Position numbers and translations under genes: made by a program. Below the pieces are notes generated by a model that was given only the letters and a program-made list of their open reading frames with translations, searched no databases and was not told the DNA's origin. From a virus: a stretch of DNA of 64,000 nt. Shown here piece after piece: positions 6,342 to 33,028 of the stretch (positions are counted from its first letter, which is position 1; every line of letters begins with the position of its first letter). The stretch covers positions 1 to 64,000 of IMG/VR virus record IMGVR_UViG_3300007735_000974; one strand, written 5' to 3'.

Positions 6342-7052
6342 ATGAAATCAAAAACAGAATCAAAAGTCACATTTAATAGACTTTTAACCGAAGACGATGT
6401 TTCAGTATTCTCTGAAATAATTAAAAAAGAAAAGTACCCAGAAAAGGGATTTAGGCATAGAGAACTATGGAATGTTCCTGCTGGATTTTCAAAATGGGTT
6501 TCTGTTCTTGAGCAATTCAGATCTTTAAATAAAAATAATTTAAAGGTTGTGGAATTGGGTCCTGGTACTGGGGTTGTTCCTTATATCATTGCCAGTTGGG
6601 GAAATGATGTCACTGGAATTGATATTGAAGTTATTGAAAATTGGTGCCCTAAAAATCTAATCAGGATGGTTATTGGAGACGCTTTATTGGAGATAAAAGA
6701 AATGGATAGTGAGAGTGTAGATGTTGTAACCGATCTTTGTGCTATACATGAATTCAATCCCGTAAGTAATGAAGAATTTAAAAATGTTGGTCTAAAGCAA
6801 GTCGCAGATCAAATTTTTAGAATCTTGAAAAAGGGTGGGAAATTTTTCATGTCTACTGACGTTTCTCTTGTTTTCCCTCCATCACAACCAGGTGGATTCC
6901 TTCTTCCAGAAGATTTGATTGATATTGTAGAATCATCTGGATTGAAGTTAACTAGTCCATATAAAAAGGAATACGAACAATCAGAATACAAACCAATCTA
7001 TCAATCGGCAATTGGTTTGCATATTGCTACTTTCTCTTTTGAAAAACCATAA
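6342..7052 (+). CDS. class I SAM-dependent methyltransferase
   Basis: A 236-aa protein. Motif I is VVELGPGTGVVPYI (~residue 68), with an acidic residue closing the second strand (GIDIE) and a downstream FRILKKGGKFFMST that matches the post-motif III loop. Its place between fcl and a nucleotidyltransferase suggests methylation of a sugar or glycan, but the acceptor is not known. Intact for the fold. Confidence 0.8.
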   Translation: MKSKTESKVTFNRLLTEDDVSVFSEIIKKEKYPEKGFRHRELWNVPAGFSKWVSVLEQFRSLNKNNLKVVELGPGTGVVPYIIASWGNDVTGIDIEVIENWCPKNLIRMVIGDALLEIKEMDSESVDVVTDLCAIHEFNPVSNEEFKNVGLKQVADQIFRILKKGGKFFMSTDVSLVFPPSQPGGFLLPEDLIDIVESSGLKLTSPYKKEYEQSEYKPIYQSAIGLHIATFSFEKP

Positions 7053-7053
7053 T

Positions 7054-8610
7054 ATGAAAATTGTTATTCCAATGTCTGGAATGAGCCGCAGATTTATAGA
7101 CGCGGGATATCAAATTCCAAAGTATCTAATTCACGCTAACAATAAAAGAGTCATAGAGCATATTGTTGATTTATATCCTAAGGATAGTAATTTTCTGTTT
7201 ATTATAAATGATAAACATGAGCAGGAGACAGAGGTTGTAAATTTGTTGAATGATATTGTAAGTAATAAAACAATTGTAACTATTGATTCTCATAAAAAAG
7301 GACCAGTATATACAGTTTCTCAAGCACTACAGCACATAGAAGATGATGAACAAGTAGTTGTTAATTACTGCGACTTTTCAATGTATTGGGATTATCAAGA
7401 TTTTGAAAATTTTGTAGATGAAACTGAGTGTGATAGTTGTGTTGTTTGTTACACGGGATTTCATCCACACATGTTAGGTGGTGATAATTATGCTTTCTGT
7501 AAAGTCAACTTGCACAATGACATATTGGAAATAAGGGAGAAGCAACCCTTTACCGACAATAAAATGTCTGAGTATGCTTCTACTGGAACTTATTATTTTC
7601 GTAAAGGTGAATATGTTAAAAAATATTTTCAGCAGTTAATTGAAGAAGACGTAAATATCAATGGTGAATATTATGTAAGTCTTGTTCATAATTTAATGAT
7701 AAGAGATAATCTTATAAACAAGGTTTATGAAGTTCCTCATATGTTACAATGGGGAACGCCACTTGATTTTGATATGTATCAAAAGTGGTCCAACTATTAT
7801 GAAAAAACACTTCATGGGCAAAAGGAAATTTTTATTCCAAATACTGTCACTTTGATACCAATGGCAGGAGCTGGGAGTAGATTTTTAAAAGAAGGATATT
7901 CGGAACCAAAACCATTTATTTCGGTGAATGGTAAAAGAATGGTTGACCAAGCACTTCGTTGTCTGCCTAAAACTGATAAAACTATTTTTGGTTGTTTACG
8001 TGGACACAGAAGATTCTCTATCCTTGGTAATATTGTATGGATTGATGATGTATTGCCAGGACAAGCTTGTACAACAGAACGTCTTGTAAATGAAATTGAG
8101 TCTGAATCAATATTGATTTCTGCCTGTGATAATGGTGTATTTTATGATGCTAATAAGTTTTTAGATTTGGTAAATGATGATGAAAATGATATAATTGTTT
8201 GGAGTTATAGGAACAATTATACAAGTTACTACAATCCAAATATGTATTCTTGGTTAGACATTGATGAAAATCAAAACGTCTTGAATGTAAATGTAAAAGA
8301 ATTTAAAGGAACAAATCCTGTAGAAGAGTATGCTATTGTAGGAACAATGTTCTTTAGAAATAAGGACACTTATCTTGAACCTCTTCAACAACTTTATAAT
8401 AAAAATAAGAGAACAAACAATGAGTTCTATATTGATAACTTATTAAATGAAGCTATAGAACTTGGATATAAAGTTAAAAATTTTGAAATAGATGAATATA
8501 TTTGTTGGGGAACACCTAACGATTTAAAAACCTACGAGTATTGGCAAAGATTTTTTAATAAAGTTGATTGGCATCTTTATGAATACGCAAAAGACTATTT
8601 TACCAATTGA
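7054..8610 (+). CDS. two-domain sugar nucleotidyltransferase
   Basis: A 518-aa protein with two GT-A-like nucleotidyltransferase domains in tandem. Domain 1 starts IPMSGMSRRFIDAGYQIPK (residue ~4), and domain 2 starts IPMAGAGSRFLKEGYSEPK (~270). The family motif is GxGxRF…PK. Domain 1 has lost the second Gly (GMSRRF), and its later acidic site reads NYCDFSMYWD versus SACDNGVFYD in domain 2. One domain may be catalytic and the other regulatory. Such enzymes join CTP, UTP or dTTP to a phosphorylated sugar. A third copy is at 12653. Confidence 0.8.
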   Translation: MKIVIPMSGMSRRFIDAGYQIPKYLIHANNKRVIEHIVDLYPKDSNFLFIINDKHEQETEVVNLLNDIVSNKTIVTIDSHKKGPVYTVSQALQHIEDDEQVVVNYCDFSMYWDYQDFENFVDETECDSCVVCYTGFHPHMLGGDNYAFCKVNLHNDILEIREKQPFTDNKMSEYASTGTYYFRKGEYVKKYFQQLIEEDVNINGEYYVSLVHNLMIRDNLINKVYEVPHMLQWGTPLDFDMYQKWSNYYEKTLHGQKEIFIPNTVTLIPMAGAGSRFLKEGYSEPKPFISVNGKRMVDQALRCLPKTDKTIFGCLRGHRRFSILGNIVWIDDVLPGQACTTERLVNEIESESILISACDNGVFYDANKFLDLVNDDENDIIVWSYRNNYTSYYNPNMYSWLDIDENQNVLNVNVKEFKGTNPVEEYAIVGTMFFRNKDTYLEPLQQLYNKNKRTNNEFYIDNLLNEAIELGYKVKNFEIDEYICWGTPNDLKTYEYWQRFFNKVDWHLYEYAKDYFTN

Positions 8611-9682
8611 GTATTGGAATTCTGGAAGAACAAGACTTATAAAAGAAAAAGATGAGAATGGCAGAGATATTGAGGTTGCATACTTTTTCTCTTGCCAATT
8701 TGTAGGACTATCCAAGCATTATCCACAACCACTCATTTATTCTCACCAAACTCATAAACTACATCTTCCAACCAAGGAGATGTTTATGTCTCTTGGGAGA
8801 GGGACAGTATATGAGGAGACGATGGAATATGAAGTTGAAGTTCCAATGATCTTTAAGAACTTCTGCTCAGTTCCTGTATTTTACTTTGTGTACAATGTGG
8901 CAAACTACTATCATTTCATTTATGATACATTGCCTTATCTCTATTCATACTTTAATGAGAAAGAGATTCATCCAGACCTGAAACTTCTTGTAAGTCCTCC
9001 TGAGGGTAAAGACGATTTGTATCCCTTCGTATGGGAATGCCTGGAACTTTTGGGAATAGGTCGTAAGGACGTAGTGTTTCTCAATCCAGATACCTTATAT
9101 AATACGGTTGTAGTTGGTTCTTCATTAACTCACAATGGACTATCAAACACTCCGCCACATTCGGGGGTCTTTGATATTATTAACCGTATGAAGGGTGACT
9201 ATCAAGGACCAGAGAAGATTTATATCTCACGTAGAACTTGGTTACATAATAACTTTGAAAACATCGGCACCAACTACACAGAGCGTCGTCGTTGTGTGAA
9301 TGAGGATGAAGTAGCAGAATTTTTTAAATCCCAGGGATATGAAGAAGTCTTCTGTGAAAATATGACAATGAAAGAAAAGATTGGACTCTTCAATTCTGCA
9401 AAGTATGTTGCTGGTCCTATTGGTGGTGGTATGTGTAACGTAATCTTTTCGCCACCAGAAACCAAGGTCATTTCAATCAACAGCCCTTTGTTCTTTGATA
9501 TTAATACGCGCTTTGAGTATTCAATGATACACACACAACTTCATCACTTTAACGACACTGAGTTTGTTGAGAAGGTAGAAGAAAGTGTAGAGAGTGATGG
9601 TGCGCTTTCTATTTCTGGTGGTCTAAACTCACCTTGGAAGGTGGATCTAAATAAACTAAAAACATTTCTTAACAATGTCTGA
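8579..9682 (+). CDS. glycosyltransferase, GT61 (DUF563)-like
   Basis: About 367 aa. The C-terminal half has the GT61 pattern: KIYISRRTW, then NEDEVAEFF, and SAKYVAGPIGGGMCNVIF with PPETKVISI. An earlier NYYHFIYDTLPYL matches the family's central His-containing motif. The start at 8579 overlaps the previous gene by 32 bases. An ATG at 8564 is also possible. The acceptor cannot be inferred. Confidence 0.8.
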   Translation: MNTQKTILPIEYWNSGRTRLIKEKDENGRDIEVAYFFSCQFVGLSKHYPQPLIYSHQTHKLHLPTKEMFMSLGRGTVYEETMEYEVEVPMIFKNFCSVPVFYFVYNVANYYHFIYDTLPYLYSYFNEKEIHPDLKLLVSPPEGKDDLYPFVWECLELLGIGRKDVVFLNPDTLYNTVVVGSSLTHNGLSNTPPHSGVFDIINRMKGDYQGPEKIYISRRTWLHNNFENIGTNYTERRRCVNEDEVAEFFKSQGYEEVFCENMTMKEKIGLFNSAKYVAGPIGGGMCNVIFSPPETKVISINSPLFFDINTRFEYSMIHTQLHHFNDTEFVEKVEESVESDGALSISGGLNSPWKVDLNKLKTFLNNV

Positions 9683-10340
9683 AATAATAGAACTAGCAAG
9701 AGAAATCAGTGAATACACTATCTGTGGTGAGGGTAATGTATCTGTAAGAGACGGAGAGAATACTTTTTTAATTAAGGCAAGTGGGACTAGTCTTCATACT
9801 CTATCTAATGAAGACCTGACACTATGTAATATCCATGGAGTTCAGTTAGATTCTTCTCATAAAAAACCAAGTATTGAAACTTCATTTCACGCTTGGATTA
9901 TGAGAACTTTTCCAGAGATAAACTTTATTGCTCATACTCACCCACCACACACAACTAAAATTCTCTGTTCTAATCAGTTATATCAGTTTGCAAATCACCG
10001 TTGGTTCCCTGATCAGATTGTGAGAAATGGAACTAAGTCCTGTGTAGTTCCTTATGCACCACCTGGAAAGGCAATTTTAAAACTTGTAGAAAAGCACGTA
10101 TCTGCATTTGTTGATTATGAAGGATACTTTCCAAAGTTGATTTTATTGCAGAATCATGGTATAATCACAGCATCTGCATCTAAAAAAGATTGCGCTGCCG
10201 CAACCTTAATGTGTGAAAAATCTGCTGATATTTTTATTGGAGCAAAACTTCTAGGTGGAGTTAAGTTCCTGACTAAGCAAGAAGTCGCTGATGTCGATAC
10301 CTGTCCAAATGAAAACTATAGAAGAAAACTCTATCAATGA
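9675..10340 (+). CDS. class II aldolase/epimerase/dehydratase family protein
   Basis: A 221-aa protein of the fuculose-1-phosphate aldolase/ribulose-5-phosphate epimerase/MtnB fold. It has GEGNVSVRDG and IKASGTSL (phosphate-binding), PSIETSFHAWI, HTHPPHTTK (zinc-binding His pair) and LLQNHGIITA (third His). Members cleave, epimerise or dehydrate ketose phosphates. The neighbours (HAD phosphatase, cupin, RuBisCO-like protein, nucleotidyltransferase) suggest synthesis of an unusual sugar-derived precursor. It overlaps the genes before and after by 8 and 4 bases. Confidence 0.85.
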   Translation: MSEIIELAREISEYTICGEGNVSVRDGENTFLIKASGTSLHTLSNEDLTLCNIHGVQLDSSHKKPSIETSFHAWIMRTFPEINFIAHTHPPHTTKILCSNQLYQFANHRWFPDQIVRNGTKSCVVPYAPPGKAILKLVEKHVSAFVDYEGYFPKLILLQNHGIITASASKKDCAAATLMCEKSADIFIGAKLLGGVKFLTKQEVADVDTCPNENYRRKLYQ

Positions 10341-10648
10341 AAATCATTTATGTTGATATTGACGAAACCATTTGTCATCGGGAAACTTCTGTTGACTTTG
10401 GCACAACTCATGATTACACCAAAGCAAAACCTATCCCAGAGAATATAGAAAAGATTAATAAACTCTATGACGAAGGTCATACAATAGTTTATTGGACTGC
10501 TCGTGGTTCTAGAAAGCAAATTGATTGGACAGAACTTACAAGTCAACAACTTGCTGAGTGGGGAGCGAAGTATCATGAGTTAAGAGTGGATAAACCTTTT
10601 TATGACTTATTCATTGAAGACAAATCATTACGGATTGAAGAATTATGA
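10337..10648 (+). CDS. small HAD-superfamily phosphatase
   Basis: A 103-aa protein. The HAD motif I YVDIDETICH provides the nucleophile Asp and second Asp. Motif II is YWTARGSRKQ (Thr). A Lys in RVDKPFYD and acidic IEDKSLR match motifs III and IV. It has no large cap domain, like the capsule-biosynthesis HAD proteins found with sugar nucleotidyltransferases. A role in dephosphorylating an intermediate of the surrounding pathway is inferred. Confidence 0.8.
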   Translation: MKIIYVDIDETICHRETSVDFGTTHDYTKAKPIPENIEKINKLYDEGHTIVYWTARGSRKQIDWTELTSQQLAEWGAKYHELRVDKPFYDLFIEDKSLRIEEL

Positions 10649-11106
10649 AAATTATTTCTCATCGCGGAAACATTCGTGGTCCTGTACCTGACAAGGAAAA
10701 TCGTCCTAGTTACATTGATTGTGCAATCGGTAATGGATATGATGTGGAAATTGACGTTCGTTCAATCAATGGTGAACTTTGGTTAGGTCACGATGAACCA
10801 CAGTACAAGGTTGACCATAATTGGATAGATAAGCGTAGGCACTATTTGTGGTTACACTGTAAAAATATTGAAGCAGCAACTGAATGTTGGGCATATCATT
10901 CATTTTGTCACTCGAATGATCCATTTGTCTATACATCCGTTGGAAAAATTTGGTTGCATAATGACTTAGAATCGGTTTTGTTGAATGATAACATTATCAT
11001 ACCTAGGATTAGTAAATCTGATTTGGAGTCTTTTAATAAGGATAAAACTTTAGGAACACCATTTGCTATCTGTACTGATTACCCCGCTATGATTGGAGAA
11101 TACTGA
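10645..11106 (+). CDS. glycerophosphodiester phosphodiesterase-like (PLC-like TIM barrel) protein
   Basis: A 153-aa protein beginning KIISHRGN, then ENRPSYIDCAIGNGYDVEIDVR and GELWLGHDEP. These match the His-Arg, Glu-Asn and Glu-Asp-His residues of the N-terminal part of the GDPD family. It is about half the usual ~250 aa, so it may be a reduced form or a derived binding protein. It overlaps the HAD gene by 4 bases, so joint production is likely. The substrate could be a glycerophosphate-like group on a glycan (inference). Confidence 0.7.
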   Translation: MKIISHRGNIRGPVPDKENRPSYIDCAIGNGYDVEIDVRSINGELWLGHDEPQYKVDHNWIDKRRHYLWLHCKNIEAATECWAYHSFCHSNDPFVYTSVGKIWLHNDLESVLLNDNIIIPRISKSDLESFNKDKTLGTPFAICTDYPAMIGEY

Positions 11107-11107
11107 A

Positions 11108-11872
11108 ATGACTAAAAAATTTGCTGTTTGTTTTTCTGGTTATCCCAGATTTGTTAGAAAACAATTCGAAAATATTAAGACTAATTTTCTAGATGGTCTT
11201 GGAGATTATGACATCTATGCGATGTTTCAATGGCCTGAGGATTGGAAAAATACTTTAATGCATGTTAGTCATGACGACAAGTTTGAAACTAATGAAGTAG
11301 AAGATTTCAAAGAACTCTATGGACCTTTAAATCTTAAAAAGATTGCCACTATTCCACCTTATGACTTTAGTCATCTTGAATTTAATGGTAAAAATGCAGA
11401 ACCAGATTTGGGTGGGGTTTCTGAAGAAATCTTGAGAGACCTCTTTTATAGACAAAAATGTCAGTTTCAAGGTATCGAAGATTGTATCAAACTTATTGAC
11501 AACCCAAATGACTATCAATTTGTTGTCAGAATGAGAACGGATCTAGTCTTTCATTCAGAAGTAACTATGAAAGATTTAGAATCCAAAGTAATTATCAATC
11601 AAGACGGATATATTGCTGGAGCAGATAGACCAGCTTCAGATTGGTTCTTCATCACTCCAACAAATAAACTTGAGTTTTTTACTGAACTTTCTAAAATTGA
11701 AGAGCACTTTAAAGAAGGTGTTGTTGGGCATCACAGAATCATTGCCCAACTTGGTGAGAAGTATGGCATTGAATATCACGAGTTCAATATTCGAACACCC
11801 ACAGCCACTGGAGGAGCGTCTGTTCTTTACAAAAAACCCACTGACAATTATAATGTAATTAGGAAGTTTTGA
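11108..11872 (+). CDS. putative glycosyltransferase, SGxPR paralogue family
   Basis: A 254-aa protein. It has FSGYPRFVRKQFENI near the N-terminus and FVVRMRTDLVFH about 145 residues later, which resembles a nucleotide-sugar-binding DxD-type region. Two paralogues follow (11877 and 16651) with the same two motifs. The start at 11108 has GGAG nine bases upstream. It is assigned as a glycosyltransferase from context and this pattern, so the call is tentative. Confidence 0.6.
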   Translation: MTKKFAVCFSGYPRFVRKQFENIKTNFLDGLGDYDIYAMFQWPEDWKNTLMHVSHDDKFETNEVEDFKELYGPLNLKKIATIPPYDFSHLEFNGKNAEPDLGGVSEEILRDLFYRQKCQFQGIEDCIKLIDNPNDYQFVVRMRTDLVFHSEVTMKDLESKVIINQDGYIAGADRPASDWFFITPTNKLEFFTELSKIEEHFKEGVVGHHRIIAQLGEKYGIEYHEFNIRTPTATGGASVLYKKPTDNYNVIRKF

Positions 11873-11876
11873 TAAG

Positions 11877-12653
11877 ATGAAAGTAGCTTTAATATTTTCT
11901 GGTCAACCCAGATTCGTAAAGGAGTGTGCTCCTTATTTAATTGAAAATATTGTTAGCAAATATGATGTAGATGTATTTGCTCATTTGTGGTTTGATGAAA
12001 ACCTATTGAAAACTCCTTATAAGTATGAAGGAAATTGGCCAACTCAAACTATTAGTCCAAATGCTTTAGAAACTTTTAAAGAACTTTATAATCCTATCGG
12101 TCTTGAAGTTGAAGAAAGCATGTCATTTCAAGACGACAGCATGGACTTTGAAGCAAGTATGAGAAAATATAATGATTGGGCAACACCTAATGCTCCAGAC
12201 AATATGAAAAATGGAACAAAGGGTTTTATGAATTTGATTAAGTCAAATCAAATTTCATACTTTTATAGTCTGAACAAAGCAAATCTTTTGAAGAAAAAGT
12301 TTGAATATCAAAATAACTTTAAGTATGATTGGGTTATCAGGGCAAGAACTGATACTGCACCACATACTCCTTTGGAACTTTCTAACTATAATCCAAATGC
12401 TGTAACATACACGAATATTAATAATCAAGAATCTGTTACTCCTGGATTAATTTGTGACTGGTTGAATTTTGGTAACTCATACGTTATGGACGTGTTTAAT
12501 AGTTGTTTTCCCTGTTATGATCATCTTATTGAAGAATGTAAAAGAACAAATAATGGTGCTTGGTCTCCAGAACTAGTTCATAGAAAAATGGTTGATCTTT
12601 ATAAAGTGAAAGCAGAAGGTCATTCTATTCCAGTATCATTGCCCAGATTTTAA
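11877..12653 (+). CDS. putative glycosyltransferase, SGxPR paralogue family
   Basis: A 258-aa paralogue of the preceding gene: IFSGQPRFVKECAPYL near the N-terminus, DVDVFAHLWFDEN, and YDWVIRARTDTAPH in the centre. Its stop overlaps the ATG of the nucleotidyltransferase (TAATG). It is likely to act on the same glycan as its paralogues, with acceptor unknown. Confidence 0.6.
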   Translation: MKVALIFSGQPRFVKECAPYLIENIVSKYDVDVFAHLWFDENLLKTPYKYEGNWPTQTISPNALETFKELYNPIGLEVEESMSFQDDSMDFEASMRKYNDWATPNAPDNMKNGTKGFMNLIKSNQISYFYSLNKANLLKKKFEYQNNFKYDWVIRARTDTAPHTPLELSNYNPNAVTYTNINNQESVTPGLICDWLNFGNSYVMDVFNSCFPCYDHLIEECKRTNNGAWSPELVHRKMVDLYKVKAEGHSIPVSLPRF

Positions 12654-13366
12654 TGAATATTCTTATTCCTATGGCAGGTGAGGGAACACGTTTCCCCAGA
12701 GACACCTACAAAGTCCCAAAACCACTAATTAACGTTAATGGTTCTCCAATGATTCAAGTTGCTCTGGCATCTTTAGGATTAGTTGGAACTTATCATTTTG
12801 TTATTCGTAAAGACAGTTACTATGATCAGGTGTGCCATTTATTACACTCTATCTTTCCAGATTCAAAAATAATTAGTGTTGACGAAACAACTTCTGGTCC
12901 AGCATCTAGTTGTCTTTTGTTTCGGGATTATATCAATAATGAAGATGAGTTAGTTGTTGCTAACTGCGATCAAATCATGTGGTGGGATCCAAATTTATTT
13001 CTTAATACTGCAAGATATTATAGGTATGACGGATTAGTTGTTACTTATACCACAACTACACCAAAGAATAGTTATGCCAAAATTGATAAAATGGGATTTG
13101 TTCAGGAGATAAAAGAAAAAGAAGTTATTAGTGATGTTTCTTTAAATGGAATTCATTACTGGAGAAAAGGAAAATATTTTGTGCAAAGTGCAGAAAGTAT
13201 GATACAATGTAAAGATACTGCTCCAAATGGTGAATTTTATGTTGGTCCGACATATAATTATATGATTAAACAGGGTTTGAAAGTTGGAATTCATCATATT
13301 CCAAACTATCAACATAATCCAGTTGGAGTCCCAGAGGATTTGAATTCTTTCTTGCAAAAATTATGA
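12653..13366 (+). CDS. sugar nucleotidyltransferase (single domain)
   Basis: A 237-aa protein with the family start LIPMAGEGTRFPRDTYKVPK, complete GxGxRF and PK motifs, the acidic VVANCDQIMWW, and NGEFYVGPTYNYMI. It would activate a sugar or polyol phosphate as an NDP derivative. It precedes the cupin and RuBisCO-like genes with 4-base overlaps, which links it to that cassette. The nucleotide used cannot be told from sequence. Confidence 0.85.
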   Translation: MNILIPMAGEGTRFPRDTYKVPKPLINVNGSPMIQVALASLGLVGTYHFVIRKDSYYDQVCHLLHSIFPDSKIISVDETTSGPASSCLLFRDYINNEDELVVANCDQIMWWDPNLFLNTARYYRYDGLVVTYTTTTPKNSYAKIDKMGFVQEIKEKEVISDVSLNGIHYWRKGKYFVQSAESMIQCKDTAPNGEFYVGPTYNYMIKQGLKVGIHHIPNYQHNPVGVPEDLNSFLQKL

Positions 13367-13689
13367 ACGTTACAAAGATAAAAGATTATGTCCGTGGGTG
13401 GTTCATTGGAAACTTTGAACCCTCTTTGTTGAAGACAAGTGGTTTTGAAGTTGGCGTTCTTACCCATCCCAAAGGAGAGCAATGGCCAGCACACTATCAC
13501 AAAGAAACTATTGAATATAATGTTCTTGTTTCTGGTAAAATGACCGTCCAGGGAAAAGAGCTAAATAGTGGTGATGTATTTGTCTTTGATAAAGGAGAGA
13601 TTGCAGATCCTGTTTTTCTTGAAGACTGTACTGTTGTTTGTGTGAAAGTCCCCTCCATTCCTTCTGATAAATTTGAGATTGAAAAATGA
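13363..13689 (+). CDS. single-domain cupin protein
   Basis: A 108-aa protein. Cupin motif 1 is complete: G-5-HYH-4-E-6-G (GEQWPAHYHKETIEYNVLVSG, residues ~43-63), giving two His and one Glu for metal binding. Motif 2 (GDVFVFDKGEIADPVF) lacks the usual His, so the metal site may have three ligands. Small cupins include sugar-phosphate isomerases, epimerases and dioxygenases. It overlaps the RuBisCO-like gene by 4 bases. The reaction is unknown. Confidence 0.75.
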   Translation: MNVTKIKDYVRGWFIGNFEPSLLKTSGFEVGVLTHPKGEQWPAHYHKETIEYNVLVSGKMTVQGKELNSGDVFVFDKGEIADPVFLEDCTVVCVKVPSIPSDKFEIEK

Positions 13690-14924
13690 AATTTTTTAGA
13701 GAACTAACTGAATACGAAAAAGATCGTTGTGTAGTTGCAACTTACTACATTGAATCTTATGAAAACCTTGGCACTTTGAGAGATGCTGCTTGGAATCTTG
13801 CCATTGGACAAAGCGTTGGTAACCCAAAAGTTCGTAATCGTTGGGAAAGCGATGAACTATTTGAGCTAGCATCTTGTGTGATTTACGCTGACGAAAATGA
13901 ACTTTCTCAGCAAACCAAAGGGCAAGTAAAAATTGGTTTCCCTAAAGTTAATACTGACTGGGAGGGAGATGGAATTTCTCACCTTCTTTGTCAATTGATG
14001 GGTGGTCAGTTAGACATTGATGTATTCAAAGTTTGCAGACTGCAGAAGTTAGAGTTTCCTGCAGATGTTGAAGCATCATTCCTTGGACCTAAAAATGGTA
14101 TTGATGGAATTAGAAAGTTTGTTAATCGTTATGACAAACCTCTTTCTGGTGCGATTGTAAAACCAAAAACTGGTATCTCTCCACAAACTCTCTCCGAGAT
14201 GGTGAAAGAACTTCTTGACGGAGGCGTAGACTTTATTAAAGAAGATGAGATTCTTTCTAATCCCTCCTTCTGTCGTCTTGAAGATCGTGTAGAACTTATT
14301 TCTAACATTGTTAATAATTGTGGGAGAAATGTAATCTATACATTCTGCATTAATGGTGATCATCATACCATTCTTGATCGTGCTAAATTTGTTGCAGAGA
14401 ATGGTGGTAACGGTATTCATATTAATTTCTGGTCAGGTCTTGGAGTTTATAACTCTGTAAGAAAAATGAACCTACCATTGTTTATCCATTATCAGAAGAG
14501 TGGAGACAAAATCCTTACGGATAAACGCCACGCATTTGGAATAGATTGGGACGTTCTTTGTGACCTTGCTGGTCTCTGTGGTGTGGATACGATTCACGCT
14601 GGAATGTGGGGTGGATATCTAAGCGATGACGAAAATGAACTTCGTCAAACCATGGCAACACTTCATAAGAGAAATGTTCTTCCCGCACTGAGCTGTGGTA
14701 TGCATCCAGGCATTGTCAACACGACCGCAGAGAAGTTTGGTACAGACTTCCTTGCTAATTGTGGTGGAGCAGTTCATGGGCACCCAGGTGGCACTCTGGC
14801 AGGTGCTCTGGCAATGCGTCAGGCAATCGACAAAACTCCTGGTCCAGAGTTTCGTGCTGCTATTGATAAATGGGGGTATGAAACTGGAGGAGGTTCTTTA
14901 CCTGAGTGGGTTTTAGATTTTTGA
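13686..14924 (+). CDS. RuBisCO-like protein (form IV type)
   Basis: A 412-aa homologue of the RuBisCO large subunit. The barrel motifs are VKPKTGIS (K159, K161), GGVDFIKEDE (K185, D187, E188: the carbamylated-Lys metal site), FIH (H268), DTIHAG (H304), SCGMH (S336, G338) and CGGAVHGHPGG (359-369). Several residues needed for CO2 fixation appear replaced: loop-6 Lys (Y311), the Arg/His after H268, and the N-terminal Glu/Thr/Trp region (GQSVGNP). It therefore looks like an enolase or decarboxylase relative, not a carboxylase. It is the last of a block with cupin, nucleotidyltransferase, HAD and aldolase genes. The substrate is unknown. Confidence 0.88.
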   Translation: MKFFRELTEYEKDRCVVATYYIESYENLGTLRDAAWNLAIGQSVGNPKVRNRWESDELFELASCVIYADENELSQQTKGQVKIGFPKVNTDWEGDGISHLLCQLMGGQLDIDVFKVCRLQKLEFPADVEASFLGPKNGIDGIRKFVNRYDKPLSGAIVKPKTGISPQTLSEMVKELLDGGVDFIKEDEILSNPSFCRLEDRVELISNIVNNCGRNVIYTFCINGDHHTILDRAKFVAENGGNGIHINFWSGLGVYNSVRKMNLPLFIHYQKSGDKILTDKRHAFGIDWDVLCDLAGLCGVDTIHAGMWGGYLSDDENELRQTMATLHKRNVLPALSCGMHPGIVNTTAEKFGTDFLANCGGAVHGHPGGTLAGALAMRQAIDKTPGPEFRAAIDKWGYETGGGSLPEWVLDF

Positions 14925-15001: not shown

Positions 15002-15643
15002 ATGAAGTGGCAAACTGACCTTATTAAGGACATTAGAAGCAATACGCCTTATGATGATACTGAAGCAGGTATTAATCATTTTCTACATATTTGGCCTGGT
15101 ATTGAAAATGATCCAGGAGTTTTAAATCCATTTGATGGTGTTGAGTGTAGTGAGTGTAATAAAGCAGCACTGCTTGAACAATTTTTGAAGGTTCGGGATA
15201 ACTGTGCGGCAATTCTTGAAATTGGAATTGGTAGAAATGGTGAGAACTCTTTTGCTCATGTGTTTTTCAAAAATAAAAAAGACGAAACCAAGTACGTTGG
15301 AATTGACATTGAAGATCGTAGTTGGTTGATTGATTGTGGTGAAAACATCTACACTATTCAAGGTAGTAGTTCAAACTATGAGGAGAATGTAGAAATTTTT
15401 AAAACTATGGGTGTAGATAAATTTGATTTTATTTTCATTGATGGTGATCATAGTGTAAATCAAGTTCTTAGAGATTGGGAATATTCAAATCTTCTAAATG
15501 ATGGTGGAATTGTTGGATTCCATGATACTAGTCATCATACTGGACCTTATCTATTCATTAAAAATTTGAATAAAGATATTTGGGATGTAGTTGAAAATGC
15601 TTGCCCACAAGATTATGGCATTGGATTTGCCAGAAAAAAATAA
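15002..15643 (+). CDS. class I SAM-dependent methyltransferase (Methyltransf_24-like)
   Basis: A 213-aa protein. Motif I is ILEIGIGRNGENSF (~residue 75), with YVGIDIEDRS, then FDFIFIDGDHSVNQVLRDW and GIVGFHDT, which are typical of this group of O-methyltransferases. AAGGAG is present eight to thirteen bases upstream. A 77-base AT-rich gap separates it from the RuBisCO-like gene, the largest gap in the operon. It is likely to modify a glycan sugar. Confidence 0.8.
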   Translation: MKWQTDLIKDIRSNTPYDDTEAGINHFLHIWPGIENDPGVLNPFDGVECSECNKAALLEQFLKVRDNCAAILEIGIGRNGENSFAHVFFKNKKDETKYVGIDIEDRSWLIDCGENIYTIQGSSSNYEENVEIFKTMGVDKFDFIFIDGDHSVNQVLRDWEYSNLLNDGGIVGFHDTSHHTGPYLFIKNLNKDIWDVVENACPQDYGIGFARKK

Positions 15644-17373: not shown

Positions 17374-18338
17374 ACATTGCTTTTATTGGTCCTGGTGTTA
17401 TGCCCATCCCACCTAATGGTTGGGGTGCTGTTGAGATGATGATATGGGACTATGCTACCATTATGGGAGACTTAGATCACACTGGTATAATCATCAATAC
17501 TCCAGACAGAAATCAAATTCTTGAAGAATTGAAGCAAGATAAGTTTGATATTGTTCATCTTCATTATGATGTGTTTCATGATATTATTCCTTACATTCCA
17601 ACCGTAACAAATGGGAAATTAGTAGTATCAAGTCATTATCCTTATATAAACAATCCTTCAATGTGGAGGCAAGATAACTATGGTCCAATTATGAATTCTT
17701 ATTCCAAGAATGAGAACTTTCATATTTTTGCCTCAAGTCAAAACGATATTAATACATTTGTTGAAAATGGTGCAATTGAAGAACGCTGTTGGTTGAGTCG
17801 TCTTGGTGTCTTGCATTCTTCATATTCTTTTGACGCAACTCCAACATATAGTAATACACTTTGTTTTTCCCAAGTATGTGATCGCAAACGTCAATATCTT
17901 CTGCAAGATTTTGATAATGTGGACATTATTGGAAGAATGGAGCAAGGAAGGTTTACCAATCCAAAAAACTATAAAGGTGAGTATGATAGGAAAAAACTAA
18001 ACGAAGAGATTACCAAGTATCCAAACTTTACTCTTCTAAGTAAAATTGAAAATACAACTCCTCTTGTTGTAAAAGAAGCATTGATTTGTGGACTTGGCGT
18101 AGTTGTTTCTGAAACAGTTTCTGTTGAATTGGATACTACAAGAGAATTTGTTGACGTGATTCCAGAAGATAGAATAGAAGACATTTCATACGTTAATTCG
18201 GTTTTGGAAAAGAACAAAGAGTACTCCGTTCAAAACAGAGAAGAGATTAGAGAATATGGTATCAATACTTTTGGATTGGAAAGTATCATTAAAAATGAAT
18301 ATGTTCCTAAATTGGAATCTATAATCAATGAAAATTAG
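17370..18338 (+). CDS. GT4-like glycosyltransferase
   Basis: A 322-aa GT-B enzyme. It has the N-terminal glycine loop IGPGVMPIPPNGWGAVE, a DIVHLHYD segment, and a C-terminal TPLVVKEALICGLGVVVSE that matches the E-x7-E donor-binding region. The next gene is a paralogue with the same layout, so this is a tandem duplication. The ends overlap (4 and 11 bases). Confidence 0.8.
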   Translation: MNIAFIGPGVMPIPPNGWGAVEMMIWDYATIMGDLDHTGIIINTPDRNQILEELKQDKFDIVHLHYDVFHDIIPYIPTVTNGKLVVSSHYPYINNPSMWRQDNYGPIMNSYSKNENFHIFASSQNDINTFVENGAIEERCWLSRLGVLHSSYSFDATPTYSNTLCFSQVCDRKRQYLLQDFDNVDIIGRMEQGRFTNPKNYKGEYDRKKLNEEITKYPNFTLLSKIENTTPLVVKEALICGLGVVVSETVSVELDTTREFVDVIPEDRIEDISYVNSVLEKNKEYSVQNREEIREYGINTFGLESIIKNEYVPKLESIINEN

Positions 18339-19272
18339 TATTATTGGTCCTGCAACTCAAATACCTCCAGTTGGTTGGGGAGCAGTAGAAAGTTTAATCT
18401 GGGATTATAAGATAACTCTAGAGAAGTTGGAACATCAAGTTCAAATTATTAACGTTGGAAGTCCTGTAGAAATCATTCAAAAAGTTAATTCTTTTAGACC
18501 AGATTTTGTTCATATTAACTATGACGATTGGATTACAATCTATCCATACATTCAGTATCCTTGTGCTTGTACAACTCACTATGGTTATCTTGAAAATCAA
18601 GATATGATGGGTGGATATGTGAATATATTCAATTTATTTGGACAATACAAACCAAATATTTTTTGTTTGTCTTCAGGTATAAAAGAAGTATACAGAACTA
18701 GGTTAGGTATACCAGAGCAAAATTTATATTTGAATCCAAATGGAGTAAATGTAGAAAATTTTAAATTTACTACAGACCCAAAATTTCCTGATAGAAGCAT
18801 TTATCTTGCAAAGGTTGACTATAGAAAAAGACAATATTTGTTTCAAGGAATCTCCAGTTTATGGTATGCTGGGAACATTGCAGACTCTAGATTCAATACT
18901 CAAAAAAATTATCTTGGGGAGTGGAGTAAAGAAACTCTTTATGCCAATTTGACAGACTATGGAAATCTGGTATTATTGAGTGATGGTGAAGCGCATCCTC
19001 TAGTTTGCATGGAGGCTTTTGCTGCTGGTTTAGGTGTTGTCGTTAGTGAATATGCGACTGCTAATCTAGATTTAGATAAAGATTTTATTGACGTTATTCC
19101 TGAAAATAAAATCAGTGACATTTCATATATTGAAAGTGTTATAACCAAGAACAGAGAATATTCTATTTCTCATCGTGAAGAAATTTTTGAATACTCCAAA
19201 AACTTTGAGTGGTCAAATATAATAGAGAATTATTATCTACCCAGTATTGAAAAATTGATTGAAAAATTATGA
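18328..19272 (+). CDS. GT4-like glycosyltransferase (paralogue)
   Basis: A 314-aa paralogue of the preceding gene. It has the N-terminal IGPATQIPPVGWGAVES, DFVHINYDDW, and donor-site HPLVCMEAFAAGLGVVVSE, in which E-x7 is complete. It is likely to add a different sugar to the same chain (inference). Confidence 0.8.
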   Translation: MKISIIGPATQIPPVGWGAVESLIWDYKITLEKLEHQVQIINVGSPVEIIQKVNSFRPDFVHINYDDWITIYPYIQYPCACTTHYGYLENQDMMGGYVNIFNLFGQYKPNIFCLSSGIKEVYRTRLGIPEQNLYLNPNGVNVENFKFTTDPKFPDRSIYLAKVDYRKRQYLFQGISSLWYAGNIADSRFNTQKNYLGEWSKETLYANLTDYGNLVLLSDGEAHPLVCMEAFAAGLGVVVSEYATANLDLDKDFIDVIPENKISDISYIESVITKNREYSISHREEIFEYSKNFEWSNIIENYYLPSIEKLIEKL

Positions 19273-20060
19273 TAGGATTTAATGCTTTAGGTCAATTAGG
19301 CAGACTTGGAAATCAAATGTTTCAATTTGCTGCTCTCAAAGGAGTTGCAAATAAACATGGATATCAATACTGTATTCCTCCAAGTCAAAATAAAAATGAG
19401 TGGAAAGATCATCAATTGTTGGTCCCATTCAAATTAGAAAGTGTTTCTCAATTGAACGTCCAATATATTGATGTTGATAGACCAATTGTTATGGAAGGGA
19501 CATTTTCATTTAATGAAAAGTTTTTTAATCAATGTCCTGATTGGGTTTCTATTCAAGGATTTTTTCAATCTGAAAAATACTTCAAACATATTGAAGATGA
19601 GATTAGATCTGATTTTACATTCAAAGATGAAATCCTGGAACCTTGCAGAGAAATGATTTCTCAATTGAATGCTTCTCCAATTGCACTTCATATTCGTAGA
19701 ACGGACTATATTACCAATCCAAATCATACTGCACTTGAATTGGATTATTATCAAAAAGCATTGGAGCAGTTTGGTAATGAAACAGTTCTTGTATTCTCTG
19801 ATGATCCAGAATGGTGCAATCAACAAGAACTATTTTCTTCAGATAGGTTTCTTATTGCTGAGGGCAATAGTAATTATGTTGACTTATGTTTGATGACATT
19901 ATGTTCGGGTCATATTATTGCAAACTCTTCATTCTCTTGGTGGGGTGCGTGGTTAGCAAACAATAATAAAGTTGTTGCGCCATCTGGGTGGTTTGCTGGA
20001 TCTGATAATAAACACATAGATACTAAAGATCTTATTCCAGAAACTTGGATGATAATTTAA
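19269..20060 (+). CDS. alpha-1,2-fucosyltransferase-like (GT11)
   Basis: A 263-aa protein with GT11 motifs in order: GRLGNQMFQFAAL (residue ~10), then the GDP-binding HIRRTDYITN (~140), VFSDDPEWC, and the C-terminal NSSFSWWGAWLANN. GT11 enzymes move fucose from GDP-L-fucose to galactose in alpha-1,2 linkage. gmd and fcl in the same operon supply this donor, so the substrate match is strong. The acceptor is inferred. It overlaps the GT6 gene (TAATG). Confidence 0.9.
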   Translation: MIGFNALGQLGRLGNQMFQFAALKGVANKHGYQYCIPPSQNKNEWKDHQLLVPFKLESVSQLNVQYIDVDRPIVMEGTFSFNEKFFNQCPDWVSIQGFFQSEKYFKHIEDEIRSDFTFKDEILEPCREMISQLNASPIALHIRRTDYITNPNHTALELDYYQKALEQFGNETVLVFSDDPEWCNQQELFSSDRFLIAEGNSNYVDLCLMTLCSGHIIANSSFSWWGAWLANNNKVVAPSGWFAGSDNKHIDTKDLIPETWMII

Positions 20061-20776
20061 TGAAAGTTGCGATTTGTTTTATTGGAACTGGAAAGTATTT
20101 GAACTTCCTTCCAAAGTATTATGAAAATATTCAAGAATATTTTCTTCCTAACAGCGAAAAGACTTTTTTAGTTTTTACTGATGGAGAAGGTGATTTTCCT
20201 GATGATGTCAAAGTATATCAACAAGAACATCTTGAATGGCCTTATGTTACTTTAACAAGATTTGGAATCATTCAAAAAGCAAAAAAAGAAATTGTAAAGA
20301 ATGATTGGTTTGTTTTTATTGATGCAGATGCATTGGTAGTTGATTCAATTACTGAAGAAGAATTTTTTAATAATGAAAAACCATTCTTTGGTGTTCACCA
20401 TCCTTGCCACTTCCTTCAAATGCCTCCTCATAATAAATATCCAGGAGCATTTGAAACCAATCCACTATCACTATCACACATAAGTCAAACTGATGATTTA
20501 TCTGTGTATTATCAGGGATGTTTATGGGGAGGAAGAGTTCCTGATGTTCTTGAAATGATTGAAGAACTTGATGGTAGAATCAATAAAGATCTTGAAAATA
20601 ATGTGATTGCGGTCTGGCATGATGAAAGTCATATCAACAAATTTTTTATTGAGCGCAAAGAAAATGTAAATATTTTAGGACCTGAATATGCATATCCTGA
20701 AGTATTTTCTGAACATTGCAAATTTGAACCAAAAATAGTACACTTAGCAAAGAACAACTCAAAATATCATGTTTGA
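20060..20776 (+). CDS. GT6 (ABO-type) glycosyltransferase
   Basis: A 238-aa protein with FIDADALVV (a DxD-like site), YYQGCLWGG and AVWHDESHINKFF, the signature order of family GT6. Animal and bacterial GT6 enzymes transfer Gal or GalNAc in alpha-1,3 linkage, and the ABO enzymes need an alpha-1,2-fucosylated galactose acceptor. That acceptor would be made by the preceding GT11-like gene, whose stop codon overlaps this start. The Ala in DAD is typical of bacterial forms, in which DxD is often NxN or varied. The donor sugar is not known. Confidence 0.85.
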   Translation: MKVAICFIGTGKYLNFLPKYYENIQEYFLPNSEKTFLVFTDGEGDFPDDVKVYQQEHLEWPYVTLTRFGIIQKAKKEIVKNDWFVFIDADALVVDSITEEEFFNNEKPFFGVHHPCHFLQMPPHNKYPGAFETNPLSLSHISQTDDLSVYYQGCLWGGRVPDVLEMIEELDGRINKDLENNVIAVWHDESHINKFFIERKENVNILGPEYAYPEVFSEHCKFEPKIVHLAKNNSKYHV

Positions 20777-21578
20777 ATTAGTTGATAAGAATAAATCTGC
20801 TCATAAACTTAAAGGTATTGGTCCAATCTATTACTTAAATCTTGATGGTCAACCAGAAAGACGCCAGTATATGGAAGACCAATTTAAATATTGGGAGATT
20901 GAAAACTACACACGTATTTCTGCATATGATGGACGTGAGGATGACTTAAGTAATATTATTGCTGGTCGTTATCCTGAAATGATGACTTCTGGTGAAATTG
21001 GATGCACTACATCTCATCTAAAAGCAATTAAACATTGGATGGAAACATCTGATGATCCTTATGCAATTATTATGGAGGATGATTGCAACTTAGACTTGGT
21101 TAAGTTCTGGAACTTTACTTGGGATGATTTCTATGCACACATCCCTTATGACTGGGATATTGTACAAATTGCTATTATCTGTACTGGCGATATTCACGTT
21201 AAGTTGCATAAGAGATTTGTAAATGATTTTTCTACGGCTTGTTATTTGATTAATCGACATCACGCAGAAAAACTTCTTAAGTTTCATTGTAGAGGAAATA
21301 AGTATAAACTTGATAATGGCGTTAAACCAAGACCTGTTGCAGATGATTTGATTTATAATACGGGGAATACATATTCAATTCCTCTTCTTCTTTATAGAAT
21401 TGAATTGGGATCTTCTATTCATCCAGAACATATTGATGCATTTCATAAAGCAAACTATAATGCTTTATCGCAGTTTTGGGAACAGAATGGTGCTGATATT
21501 GATATTAAGGATTATATGAATTACGATCCTTATCTTGGTAGGATAACCGAAAATTCCGCAGCAAATCAATCCGCTTGA
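20769..21578 (+). CDS. GT25-like (LPS-type) glycosyltransferase
   Basis: A 269-aa protein with the GT25 start IYYLNLDGQPERRQYMEDQF, GEIGCTTSHLKAIKHW, AIIMEDDCNL (acidic metal/donor site) and a later ACYLINRHHAEKLL. The LgtB/LpsA family adds galactose or related sugars to lipooligosaccharide. It is the last gene of the operon. The stop is followed by a sigma-70 promoter for the porin gene. Confidence 0.85.
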   Translation: MFELVDKNKSAHKLKGIGPIYYLNLDGQPERRQYMEDQFKYWEIENYTRISAYDGREDDLSNIIAGRYPEMMTSGEIGCTTSHLKAIKHWMETSDDPYAIIMEDDCNLDLVKFWNFTWDDFYAHIPYDWDIVQIAIICTGDIHVKLHKRFVNDFSTACYLINRHHAEKLLKFHCRGNKYKLDNGVKPRPVADDLIYNTGNTYSIPLLLYRIELGSSIHPEHIDAFHKANYNALSQFWEQNGADIDIKDYMNYDPYLGRITENSAANQSA

Positions 21579-21699: not shown

Positions 21700-23187
21700 A
21701 TGAAAATCAAACAACTGATGCTTGCACCTGTTGCTTTGGGTATGATTGCTCCTTCTGTTGCAAATGCCGCAGACCTTAATATGTCAGCAGTCAATCAATA
21801 CTCAACTGGAGAACAGGTTTCGAGCGTTACTCAATTGTCTGATGTTCGTCCTACGGATTGGGCATACCAGGCACTCAGCAACCTTGTTGAGAAATATGGT
21901 TGCGTTGCAGGTTATCCCAACGGAACCTTTGGTGGTGGTAAGTCAATGACCCGTTTTGAGGCAGCAGCTCTTCTGAATGCTTGTCTTGATCGTGTGACTG
22001 AAAGCACTGACGAACTTCGCAAACTTCTTGCTGAGTTTGATACAGAACTTACTGTTATCACTGCTCGTGTTGATGGTCTTGAAAGCAAAGTTGGTAAACT
22101 TCAAGCACAACAGTTCTCTACCACTACCAAACTGAAGGGTGAAGCAACTTTCGTTCTTGGTGGTGTTCCTGGTTATAAGACTACTACTGGTGCTACTGCT
22201 GGTAATACTGCATTCAACTATGATCTTCGTATCAACCTTGATACTTCGTTCACTGGTAAAGATTTGCTTCGCACTCGTCTGCGTTCTGGCAACTTCTCTG
22301 CACAACCTTTTGGTTCTTCTTCTTCACTTCTCAAACTTGATAAAGCAGAAACTTCACAAGGTACTGGAACTACCAGTAACATCTGGTTGGATCGTCTTTA
22401 CTACACCTTCCCTGTTGGTCAGAATGTAAAACTGACTGCAGGTGCTCTGGTTCGTAACACAGAACTTGCTTGGATTCCTTCTGCTTACAAGTCGGACATT
22501 CTTGACTTCTTCCAACTTGGTGGTGCTTCAGGTGTTTATAACAAAGCAACTGGTGCTGGATTTGGTGCTCAGTACACTCAACCTGGCAAACAAGGTTTTG
22601 TTGCTAACTTGAACTATATTGCTGAGAATGGTTCTGATAGTTCTACTGGTGTCTTTGATTCTGAAGGTAAACTGAACCTTCTGGGTCAGATTGGTTATCG
22701 TGCCACTCAATGGGGTGCTGCTGTTGGTTATCGTTATGGTACTTACGGTACTCGCGTTCGTAACTACAACGCTCTTGGCGGTGGTTCTGGTGCTCTTACA
22801 AATGGTCAAGAATCAAATAGTGTTGCATTCAACGCTTATTGGCAACCAAAGACTTCTGGTATCGTTCCTTCCATCAGCTTCGGTTATGGATACAACGGTG
22901 TGAGCGGTGCTGGTGCAAGAACTGGCGCTACTAACTCACAATCGTGGATGGCAGGTCTTCAGTGGTCTGATGTGTTTGCTAAAGGTAATGCTGCTGGTGT
23001 TGCTTACGGTGAACCTTCTAACTCGGAAAATGCTCCTAAAGCACAAATGTTGGAAGTGTTCTATAAGTATCGTGTGAGCGATAACATTAGTGTTACTCCT
23101 GCTGTGTTCTATGTTTCGGACAACCAAGGTGCTAAAAATGCTGCCTCTAACTGGGGTGGTGTGATTCAGACAACCTTCAAGTTCTGA
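21700..23187 (+). CDS. cyanobacterial-type outer-membrane porin with SLH domain
   Basis: A 495-aa exported protein. The signal peptide (MKIKQLMLAPVALGMIAPSV…ANA) is followed by an SLH domain (~residues 45-95: LSDVRPTDWAYQALSNLV, YGCVAGYPNGTF, MTRFEAAALLNACL), a short coiled coil (~100-135), and a beta-rich, Gly/aromatic C-terminal domain ending in F (…TTFKF). This is the layout of Som/OprB-like porins of cyanobacteria. The SLH domain binds the cell wall. It is more GC-rich than its neighbours, consistent with a host origin. It has strong early and late promoters and its own terminator. A role in changing nutrient uptake or the cell surface is inferred. Confidence 0.9.
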   Translation: MKIKQLMLAPVALGMIAPSVANAADLNMSAVNQYSTGEQVSSVTQLSDVRPTDWAYQALSNLVEKYGCVAGYPNGTFGGGKSMTRFEAAALLNACLDRVTESTDELRKLLAEFDTELTVITARVDGLESKVGKLQAQQFSTTTKLKGEATFVLGGVPGYKTTTGATAGNTAFNYDLRINLDTSFTGKDLLRTRLRSGNFSAQPFGSSSSLLKLDKAETSQGTGTTSNIWLDRLYYTFPVGQNVKLTAGALVRNTELAWIPSAYKSDILDFFQLGGASGVYNKATGAGFGAQYTQPGKQGFVANLNYIAENGSDSSTGVFDSEGKLNLLGQIGYRATQWGAAVGYRYGTYGTRVRNYNALGGGSGALTNGQESNSVAFNAYWQPKTSGIVPSISFGYGYNGVSGAGARTGATNSQSWMAGLQWSDVFAKGNAAGVAYGEPSNSENAPKAQMLEVFYKYRVSDNISVTPAVFYVSDNQGAKNAASNWGGVIQTTFKF

Positions 23188-23190
23188 TAA

Positions 23191-24510
<1,320 letters not shown>

Positions 24511-31945: not shown

Positions 31946-33028
31946 ATGACTGCTACAATTGCTTCACGCCGCTCTGGCGAAAATACCTGGGAACAATTCT
32001 GCTCTTGGGTGACTTCTACGAACAACCGCCTTTATGTCGGCTGGTTCGGTGTATTGATGATTCCAACGTTGCTTGCTGCAACCACTTGCTTCATCATCGC
32101 ATTCGTCGGTGCTCCCCCTGTGGACATTGACGGTATTCGTGAACCCGTTGCTGGTTCACTCATGTATGGAAACAACATCATCTCTGGTGCCGTTGTTCCT
32201 TCTTCTAATGCTATCGGTCTTCACTTTTATCCCATTTGGGAAGCTGCTTCCCTGGATGAATGGCTTTACAATGGCGGCCCTTTCCAACTTGTTGTATTCC
32301 ACTTCCTCATTGGCATCTACTGCTATATGGGACGTGAATGGGAACTCTCTTATCGTTTAGGTATGCGTCCTTGGATTATGGTTGCTTACAGCGCACCTGT
32401 TGCTGCTGCATCTGCTGTATTCCTGGTCTATCCTTTCGGTCAAGGTTCTTTCTCTGATGCAATGCCTCTGGGTATCAGTGGCACTTTCAACTACATGCTT
32501 GTGTTCCAGGCAGAACATAACATCCTGATGCACCCCTTCCATATGCTTGGAGTTGCTGGTGTGTTCGGTGGTTCACTGTTCAGTGCTATGCACGGTTCTC
32601 TGGTTACTTCTTCGTTGGTTCGTGAAACCACCGAGAATGAGTCACAGAATTATGGTTACAAGTTCGGTCAAGAAGAAGAGACATACAACATCGTTGCTGC
32701 ACACGGTTATTTTGGACGCCTTATTTTCCAATACGCTTCCTTTAATAACTCACGTTCACTGCACTTCTTCCTTGCTGCTTGGCCCGTTGTAGGCATCTGG
32801 TTCACTGCTCTTGGTGTTTCTACGATGGCTTTTAATTTAAACGGGTGGAATTTTAACCAAAGTATTTTGGACTCACAAGGACGTGTAGTTAACTCTTGGG
32901 CAGATGTCCTCAATCGTGCTGGACTCGGAATGGAAGTTATGCATGAGCGTAATGCCCACAACTTTCCTCTGGACCTTGCTGCGGCAACCAACACTCCTGT
33001 TGCCCTGACTGCACCAAGTATCGGTTGA
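31946..33028 (+). CDS. psbA: photosystem II D1 protein
   Basis: A 360-aa complete D1. It has the usual helices, [15 protein letters not shown] with the His ligands of chlorophyll and iron, and the C-terminal processing site LDLA before AATNTPVA. The position equal to residue 130 is Glu (MGREWEL), the high-light D1 form. No intron interrupts it. Phage D1 replaces photodamaged host D1 during infection. It has a strong promoter, a structured leader and a terminator at 33048. The adjacent endonuclease gene resembles those that protect or spread psbA. Confidence 0.98.

Follow-up and report, generated by a model that had tools for sequence, protein, structure and literature searches.

We found that a T4-like cyanophage carries, inside a glycan operon, a gene for a RuBisCO-like protein (RLP) that keeps company with genes for a sugar-phosphate nucleotidyltransferase (NTPtr), a small cupin and, in most loci, a miniature glycerophosphodiester-phosphodiesterase-like protein (mini-GDPD). 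We regard it as an even call that the RLP is a non-carboxylating, enolising enzyme of glycan precursor synthesis, working with the NTPtr and the cupin and usually with the mini-GDPD. The window, meaning the whole stretch of 64,000 nucleotides analysed, comes from a virus record of 67,883 bases whose nucleotide similarity is to Synechococcus phages. Consistent with the T4-like cyanophage that an earlier note on this DNA had recognised, it holds psbA (31946–33028), PhoH and genes for an ssDNA-binding protein, the tail tube and the baseplate. The glycan operon named in the same note is also there, with GT61, GT4, GT11, GT6 and GT25 glycosyltransferases and GDP-mannose dehydratase and epimerase. 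The genes discussed below are as follows.

7012–8610, + strand: second nucleotidyltransferase, 532 aa (NTP_transf_3, 9e-12)
9675–10340, + strand: class II aldolase/epimerase-like protein (Aldolase_II, 1.9e-29; best NCBIfam subfamily L-ribulose-5-P 4-epimerase, 1e-20)
10337–10648, + strand: HAD/EcbF-BcbF-like capsule phosphatase (TIGR01689, 3.7e-5; HAD_PNKP, 8e-5)
10645–11106, + strand: mini-GDPD, 153 aa (invariant motifs; GDPD profile match 3i10, 7e-5)
11093–11872, + strand: putative glycosyltransferase, paralogue in family F4 (clusters with the genes at 11877 and 16651; no Pfam match)
11877–12653, + strand: putative glycosyltransferase of family F4, DUF7796-like (DUF7796, 1.8e-6), overlapping the NTPtr start
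12653–13366, + strand: NTPtr, 237 aa (NTP_transferase, 1.8e-8; nearest PDB entry 4evw, 2e-32)
13363–13689, + strand: small cupin, 108 aa (Cupin_2, 3.7e-5, below cut-off; PHROG 24762, 1e-32, function unknown)
13686–14924, + strand: RLP, 412 aa (PF00016, 2e-43; alignment, tree, active-site table; AF2/Foldseek)
15002–15643, + strand: SAM methyltransferase downstream of the RLP, family F6 (Methyltransf_24, 1.7e-7)
18328–21578, + strand: run of glycosyltransferases (GT4-like, GT11, GT6, GT25; Pfam)

The RLP gene is an uninterrupted open reading frame with an ATG start, and stop codons crowd the opposite strand, which is not open. The protein scores 149 bits with RuBisCO_large (PF00016; cut-off 30.1), which places it inside the RuBisCO superfamily, and at E ≤ 1e-3 it has 99 distinct matches in the PDB, the strongest at 4e-40. 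Its AF2 model (pLDDT 89.4, pTM 0.88) has the RuBisCO fold, with the form III enzyme 2d69 as the closest Foldseek match (TM 0.85, probability 1.00), a resemblance too close to be chance. Against nine close viral relatives its dN/dS is 0.017–0.074 (dS was saturated for two more), so the gene is under strong purifying selection and is functional. These data bear out the earlier identification of a 412-aa homologue of the RuBisCO large subunit. The profile search that had been proposed as a check also separates the protein from each curated subfamily: the form III NCBIfam model scores best (200 bits against a cut-off of 497), followed by two MtnW equivalogs (169 against 409 and 125 against 513.6) and OiaX (155 against 700), all far below threshold.

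We aligned the active site with those of forms I, II and III, MtnW, OiaX and other RLPs (RuBisCO positions are in brackets). The carbamate and metal site is kept as K185, D187 and E188 (K201, D203, E204) and is present in 102/102 family members; the Lys pair is kept as K159 and K161 (K175, K177), and the phosphate-site residues as S336 (S379), G338 (G381) and G360/G361 (G403/G404), which are invariant or nearly so across about 100 sequences of the clade. At H304 (H327), 90 of 101 members have His and the other 11 Gln, so this residue would not be strictly needed. The loop-6 Lys (K334) is Tyr311, and Tyr in 101/101 members; N123, H294 and E60 are Gly107, Gln270 and Gly41, and are replaced throughout about 100 relatives; R295 is Lys271 (Lys in 97/102); and the N-terminal substrate lid is rebuilt as IGQSxGNP. 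The altered positions are themselves fixed, in that G41, Q42, N46, P47, G107, K159, K161, K185, D187, E188, Q270, S272, G273, M307, Y311, S336, C337 and G338 are invariant in 101–102 members.

The earlier reading of the metal site, the Lys pair, H304 and the loop-6 Tyr was therefore correct at each aligned position. Its catalytic His, H268, was misplaced: that residue falls at position 292, and the catalytic H294 is Gln270. The Thr-to-Ile change it had noted, just before the Lys pair, is present but not diagnostic, as it also occurs in archaeal form III enzymes. The form I/III active site is not intact, and the residues that mark a carboxylating RuBisCO (Lys334, Asn123, Glu60, His294 and Arg295) are missing. 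Form III enzymes (Pyrococcus horikoshii 2d69/2cwx and Thermococcus kodakarensis 3a12) are the best overall sequence and fold match and share the metal site, K175/K177 and the phosphate-site residues, but the RLP differs from them at loop-6 Lys, N123, H294, R295 and E60, in forming its own clade and in its glycan context. Judged by these residues, the RLP is not a carboxylase; read against the established RuBisCO mechanism, the pattern suggests that metal-assisted enolisation is kept and carboxylation lost. The protein is thus of form IV in the broad sense, a RuBisCO homologue without the carboxylation residues, as the earlier note had it: it misses the curated cut-offs, has a clade of its own, and the carboxylation residues are replaced in every member.

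That clade was resolved by the phylogeny that had also been proposed as a check (IQ-TREE, LG+C20). The window protein groups with viral, SAR11, archaeal, Legionella, Azospirillum, Verrucomicrobia and Elusimicrobia sequences on a branch with support of 100/100, both before and after removal of the long branches (form II, a Vibrio nigripulchritudo RLP and Sphingobacteriales) from which the final tree was rebuilt. Forms I and III, OiaX-type RLPs and MtnW lie outside, as do form II and a Vibrio RLP in a wider quick tree. The placement of MtnW beside the clade is unsupported (the deep forks around it have 87/72), and the fork just inside the clade has 45/0. Three SAR11 members (L082–L084) nest within the viral group, which indicates that the genes have moved between phages and hosts.

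Members of the clade are common in viruses and rare in cells. Relatives are encoded in at least 345 stretches of IMG/VR, one of them a 518-kb viral contig (L055); the contigs of that collection were called viral automatically and are for the most part fragmentary. None was found among 50,697 records of named phages or in PHROGs. A GTDB-based genome scan found only 21. Cellular carriage amounted to 4/22 genomes of the genus Legionella, 1/101 SAR11 relatives and 2/236, 1/199, 1/289 and 1/241 in other groups, and these rates are upper estimates because the searches centred on gene-carrying genomes.

In the window, the NTPtr, cupin and RLP genes are joined by successive ATGA overlaps. Of 42 loci with RLPs less than 90% identical and sufficient flank, 41 have the NTPtr near the RLP, 33 a mini-GDPD and 31 the cupin, and the SAM methyltransferase family F6 recurs in 31 RLP loci. 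The cupin, a candidate sugar(-phosphate) isomerase, epimerase or lyase, adjoins the RLP directly in most loci. The commonest order is NTPtr–cupin–RLP–GDPD (20 loci). Other loci are rearranged, for example to GDPD–RLP–cupin–NTPtr in an Elusimicrobia MAG and in Azospirillum oleiclasticum, where CysD/CysN-like genes follow. The set stays together as its order varies in phages, Azospirillum, Elusimicrobia and Legionella, and that hosts so distant preserve it despite the reshuffling is good evidence for a shared pathway.

The mini-GDPD is much shorter than usual GDPDs, and its catalytic motifs are in place, with HRGN, E.D, GHD and H.K invariant. Its AF2 model (pLDDT 89.9) matches the GDPD 1zcc at a Foldseek probability of 1.00 and a modest TM (TMq) of 0.50–0.59. 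Because only one Foldseek match fell below 1e-3, the assignment rests on motifs and fold; the window protein matches no Pfam family at E 0.001, and members L083 and L088 give no Pfam GDPD match at E 0.1. In the window this gene lies about 2.5 kb upstream, with two glycosyltransferase-like genes between it and the NTPtr, and it most resembles the copies in the aldolase module of phages Bellamy and S-SM2, so that in the window it is less firmly tied to the RLP than it is in other phages. The aldolase II gene itself occurs in Bellamy and S-SM2 without an RLP and is probably part of a separate sub-module. The second nucleotidyltransferase forms a branch separate from the RLP-linked NTPtrs; its C-terminal half has no Pfam match, and the protein is common to Bellamy and S-SM2.

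In three Legionella species a LicD-family gene (6e-44) sits beside the RLP–NTPtr pair, which suggests, without proving, a CDP-linked product. LicD was rejected as a general partner because it was seen only beside the Legionella genes. Several loci carry further genes. SAR11 loci (L088:4930–5667 and similar) and a Nanoarchaeia MAG (L087:13265–13885) have a second, divergent nucleotidyltransferase with the RLP. The CysD- and CysN-like sulfate-activation genes after the Azospirillum cassette (L096:6771–9568), assigned by eye, hint at a sulfated glycan. In L030:2367–5061 and seven other loci of the L029 type, the RLP is followed by an APH/fructosamine-kinase-like protein, a 3-dehydroquinate-synthase-like sugar phosphate cyclase and a short-chain dehydrogenase, possibly for cyclitol synthesis by the phage.

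Other parts of the window and related records also drew attention. The cyanophage encodes a GT6 glycosyltransferase, the ABO blood-group family (20045–20776; Pfam 1.4e-23), and an S-adenosylhomocysteine hydrolase (23257–24510; 1.6e-64) preceded by an OprB porin with an SLH domain (21700–23187). A NUMOD3-motif protein at 2195–2674 is probably a homing-endonuclease relative. In the records of L002 and L005 (G1097:C1:109183-110975 and G1099:C1:50089-54531), psbA matches come in separated pieces, which suggests an intron or duplicated or truncated copies.

The substrate class is suggested by what takes the place of the RLP. Cultured cyanophages without an RLP encode NTPtr relatives about 33–42% identical to that of the window, some of them fused to another enzyme: ribose-5-phosphate isomerase B (RpiB; PF02502, 3.9e-32) in Bellamy and SynMITS9220M01, the DHBP synthase RibB (PF00926, 5.4e-65) in S-SKS1, and a HAD_2 phosphatase in S-CAM9, DSL-LC03 and B23. 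Viral contigs and phage records together yielded 49 RpiB, 9 RibB and 8 HAD fusions, three of the last within RLP loci, and in the tree the fused NTPtrs nest among those of RLP loci. The surroundings are shared as well: the window's cupin family is present in 45/45 of the longer NTPtr–RpiB loci, mostly directly downstream and adjoining the fusion, a GDPD is present in 40/45, and family F4 also occurs beside NTPtr–RpiB and HAD–NTPtr cassettes. We found no RLP in those 45 loci, no RpiB or RibB in the RLP loci and, in a whole-record search, no RpiB in 20 RLP-bearing viral records. The RLP and RpiB, never found together, thus appear to occupy one slot, a mutual exclusion that is only partly tested, given that the query used to retrieve the RpiB loci was the NTPtr portion of an RpiB fusion and that most viral records are fragments. 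RpiB interconverts ribose-5-phosphate and ribulose-5-phosphate, RibB consumes ribulose-5-phosphate via an enediol, and RuBisCO enolises ribulose-1,5-bisphosphate; their common denominator is a pentulose phosphate. The replacement does not prove an equal reaction, as RpiB could supply ribulose-5-phosphate and the RLP another ketose.

Database annotations of the NTPtr fusions vary among 'phosphatase', 'hypothetical' and 'HAD'. The NTPtr–RpiB fusion of Bellamy (gp206; L102:3494–4651) and 48 other loci, with the window's cupin family downstream, is labelled 'phosphatase'. S-SKS1 (SWZG_00042; L222:4501–5928) and eight IMG/VR contigs have an NTPtr fused to an apparently intact RibB.

We propose that, of the RuBisCO reaction, the RLP has most likely retained the first half alone. 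A carbamylated Lys185–Mg2+ centre would polarise the carbonyl of a pentulose-type phosphate, and Lys159 would take a proton to give a 2,3-enediol(ate), which the altered site (Tyr311, Gln270, Lys271 and Gly107) would re-protonate elsewhere, resulting in isomerisation or epimerisation instead of carboxylation. The cupin may then isomerise, epimerise or eliminate, and the NTPtr would join an NMP, possibly CMP, to the phosphate of the product, forming an NDP-ketose or a ketose-derived unit. Glycosyltransferases or a phosphotransferase would add the activated ketose to a surface glycan, and the GDPD would trim or recycle a phosphodiester. A little short of evenly balanced, in our estimate, is the broader proposal that this mainly phage-carried clade is anabolic, isomerising a pentulose phosphate for a dedicated NTPtr to yield a new nucleotide-activated ketose, and forms part of an enzyme-swapping module. 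Phages would exchange the module's sugar-phosphate enzyme among RLP, RpiB, RibB, HAD and aldolase-type proteins. We know of no nucleotidyltransferase or glycan link for the RLP of Rhodospirillum rubrum, the closest functional model. That protein, likened to ours by description only, acts as a 5-methylthioribulose-1-phosphate isomerase, an enolising isomerase on a pentulose-1-phosphate derivative (as cited in PMC6302742 and PMC10176493). The substrates of characterised RLPs resemble RuBP, and the chemistry is proton abstraction, isomerisation, decarboxylation or oxygenation (PMC10176493). Mammalian ISPD, a cytidylyltransferase, can make CDP-ribulose (as cited in PMC4924997), and xylulose, though rare, does occur in bacterial polysaccharides (PMC8707391).

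The RLP might instead act after the NTPtr, enolising and then epimerising or isomerising the sugar moiety of an NDP-sugar in the manner of RmlC- or FdtA-type enzymes, perhaps with the cupin. In many nucleotide-sugar pathways modification follows activation, no partner is as constant as the NTPtr (41/42), and the rebuilt N-terminal lid could be counted in the same direction. However, both RuBisCO phosphate sites look conserved (K271 for R295, S336, G338, G360 and G361), which suits small phosphates, and the NTPtr's RpiB, RibB and HAD partners come from families that act on free sugar phosphates; we consider this order of steps unlikely.

Quite unlikely, in our view, is a role in decarboxylation or C–C bond chemistry on a sugar-acid phosphate, as OiaX and XiaX have in apionate catabolism, here with a ketose that is branched or shortened as the product. 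Small sugar phosphates are likewise the substrates of OiaX (3-oxo-isoapionate-4-phosphate decarboxylase) and of other RLPs encoded next to four-carbon acid sugar kinases, plasmid RLPs are mostly OiaX or neighbours of such kinases, and the OiaX profile gives second-tier similarity. Yet its 155 bits are far from the cut-off of 700, the cassette neighbours that we examined included no such kinase, and the OiaX context is catabolic. The two groups separate at 100/100 and differ in their N-terminal motifs, and OiaX-type proteins keep His-Arg at H294/R295 and have a loop-6 pattern unlike GGY.

A methylthio-sugar route (methionine salvage or the MTA–isoprenoid shunt), with the RLP acting as MtnW or the R. 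rubrum protein does, is very unlikely. Folds of the aldolase II, HAD, cupin and RLP kinds are all nearby in the window, and the methylsulfurylase that follows the R. rubrum RLP is a cupin. PMC6302742 describes or cites both the isomerase and the methylsulfurylase step. MtnW (2,3-diketo-5-methylthiopentyl-1-phosphate enolase) is also a non-carboxylating RLP that only enolises and keeps the metal site. But the window RLP keeps K177, which MtnW has lost, differs from it in loop 6 and lacks a methionine-salvage context, its constant partner being a nucleotidyltransferase and not a methionine-salvage gene. Methionine salvage was dropped as a reading because the aldolase–HAD block is separable, occurring in Bellamy and S-SM2 without an RLP, and because both MtnW scores fall far under their cut-offs.

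The tight gene coupling to both NTPtr and cupin could also befit a catalytically dead scaffold or structural partner, which we hold to be highly improbable, as the carbamate Lys, the Asp, the Glu and the Lys pair are invariant across phages, archaea and bacteria and argue for catalysis. A genuine CO2-fixing RuBisCO, serving as a carbon-fixation auxiliary gene, can be discounted almost entirely: despite the homology, form III enzymes as nearest characterised relatives by score and reports of viral 'rbcL' as carbon-fixation genes (PMC12615777, PMC8506154), it is already contradicted at the level of residues, with Tyr for loop-6 Lys334 in 101/101 members and N123, H294 and E60 replaced throughout, and the gene sits in glycan operons.

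Earlier surveys may have met this clade. Global Ocean Sampling described unplaced RuBisCO homologues outside the known forms, with N123 and H327 variable (Yooseph et al. 2007, PMC1821046), and the clade may be one of these groups; the likeness is by description, and the account of those homologues, as far as it goes, gives no phage or pathway context. Carbon fixation is the role that published accounts give to viral rbcL-like genes (PMC12607003, PMC8506154, PMC12615777), one viral rbcL being reported to carboxylate RuBP in lysates (PMC12615777), and such reports may include the present clade. Among them, the landfill study has a virus-encoded protein that clusters with 'RbcL-like' proteins, and rbcL in IMG/VR viruses, and in the part compared here, by description, it speaks of carbon fixation and describes no glycan cassette (PMC12607003).

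RLPs in general are a known kind of protein. We found none with a glycan role in the open-access literature, and what appears to be new is the fixed NTPtr–cupin–GDPD context, the place in a glycan operon and the RpiB/RibB swap that suggests a substrate. To our knowledge, the roles ascribed to RLPs to date lie in sulfur salvage and sugar catabolism; a part in making glycan precursors would be a first among them, in a clade that resides mainly in viruses. The compact gene set, found in the isolated A. oleiclasticum as well as in phages, offers a test system for a RuBisCO site turned isomerase. It also carries a warning that a viral 'rbcL' called carbon fixation by annotation alone may be an RLP without the carboxylation residues. 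If the proposal is true, swapping of the sugar-phosphate enzyme would diversify the surface sugars of phages.
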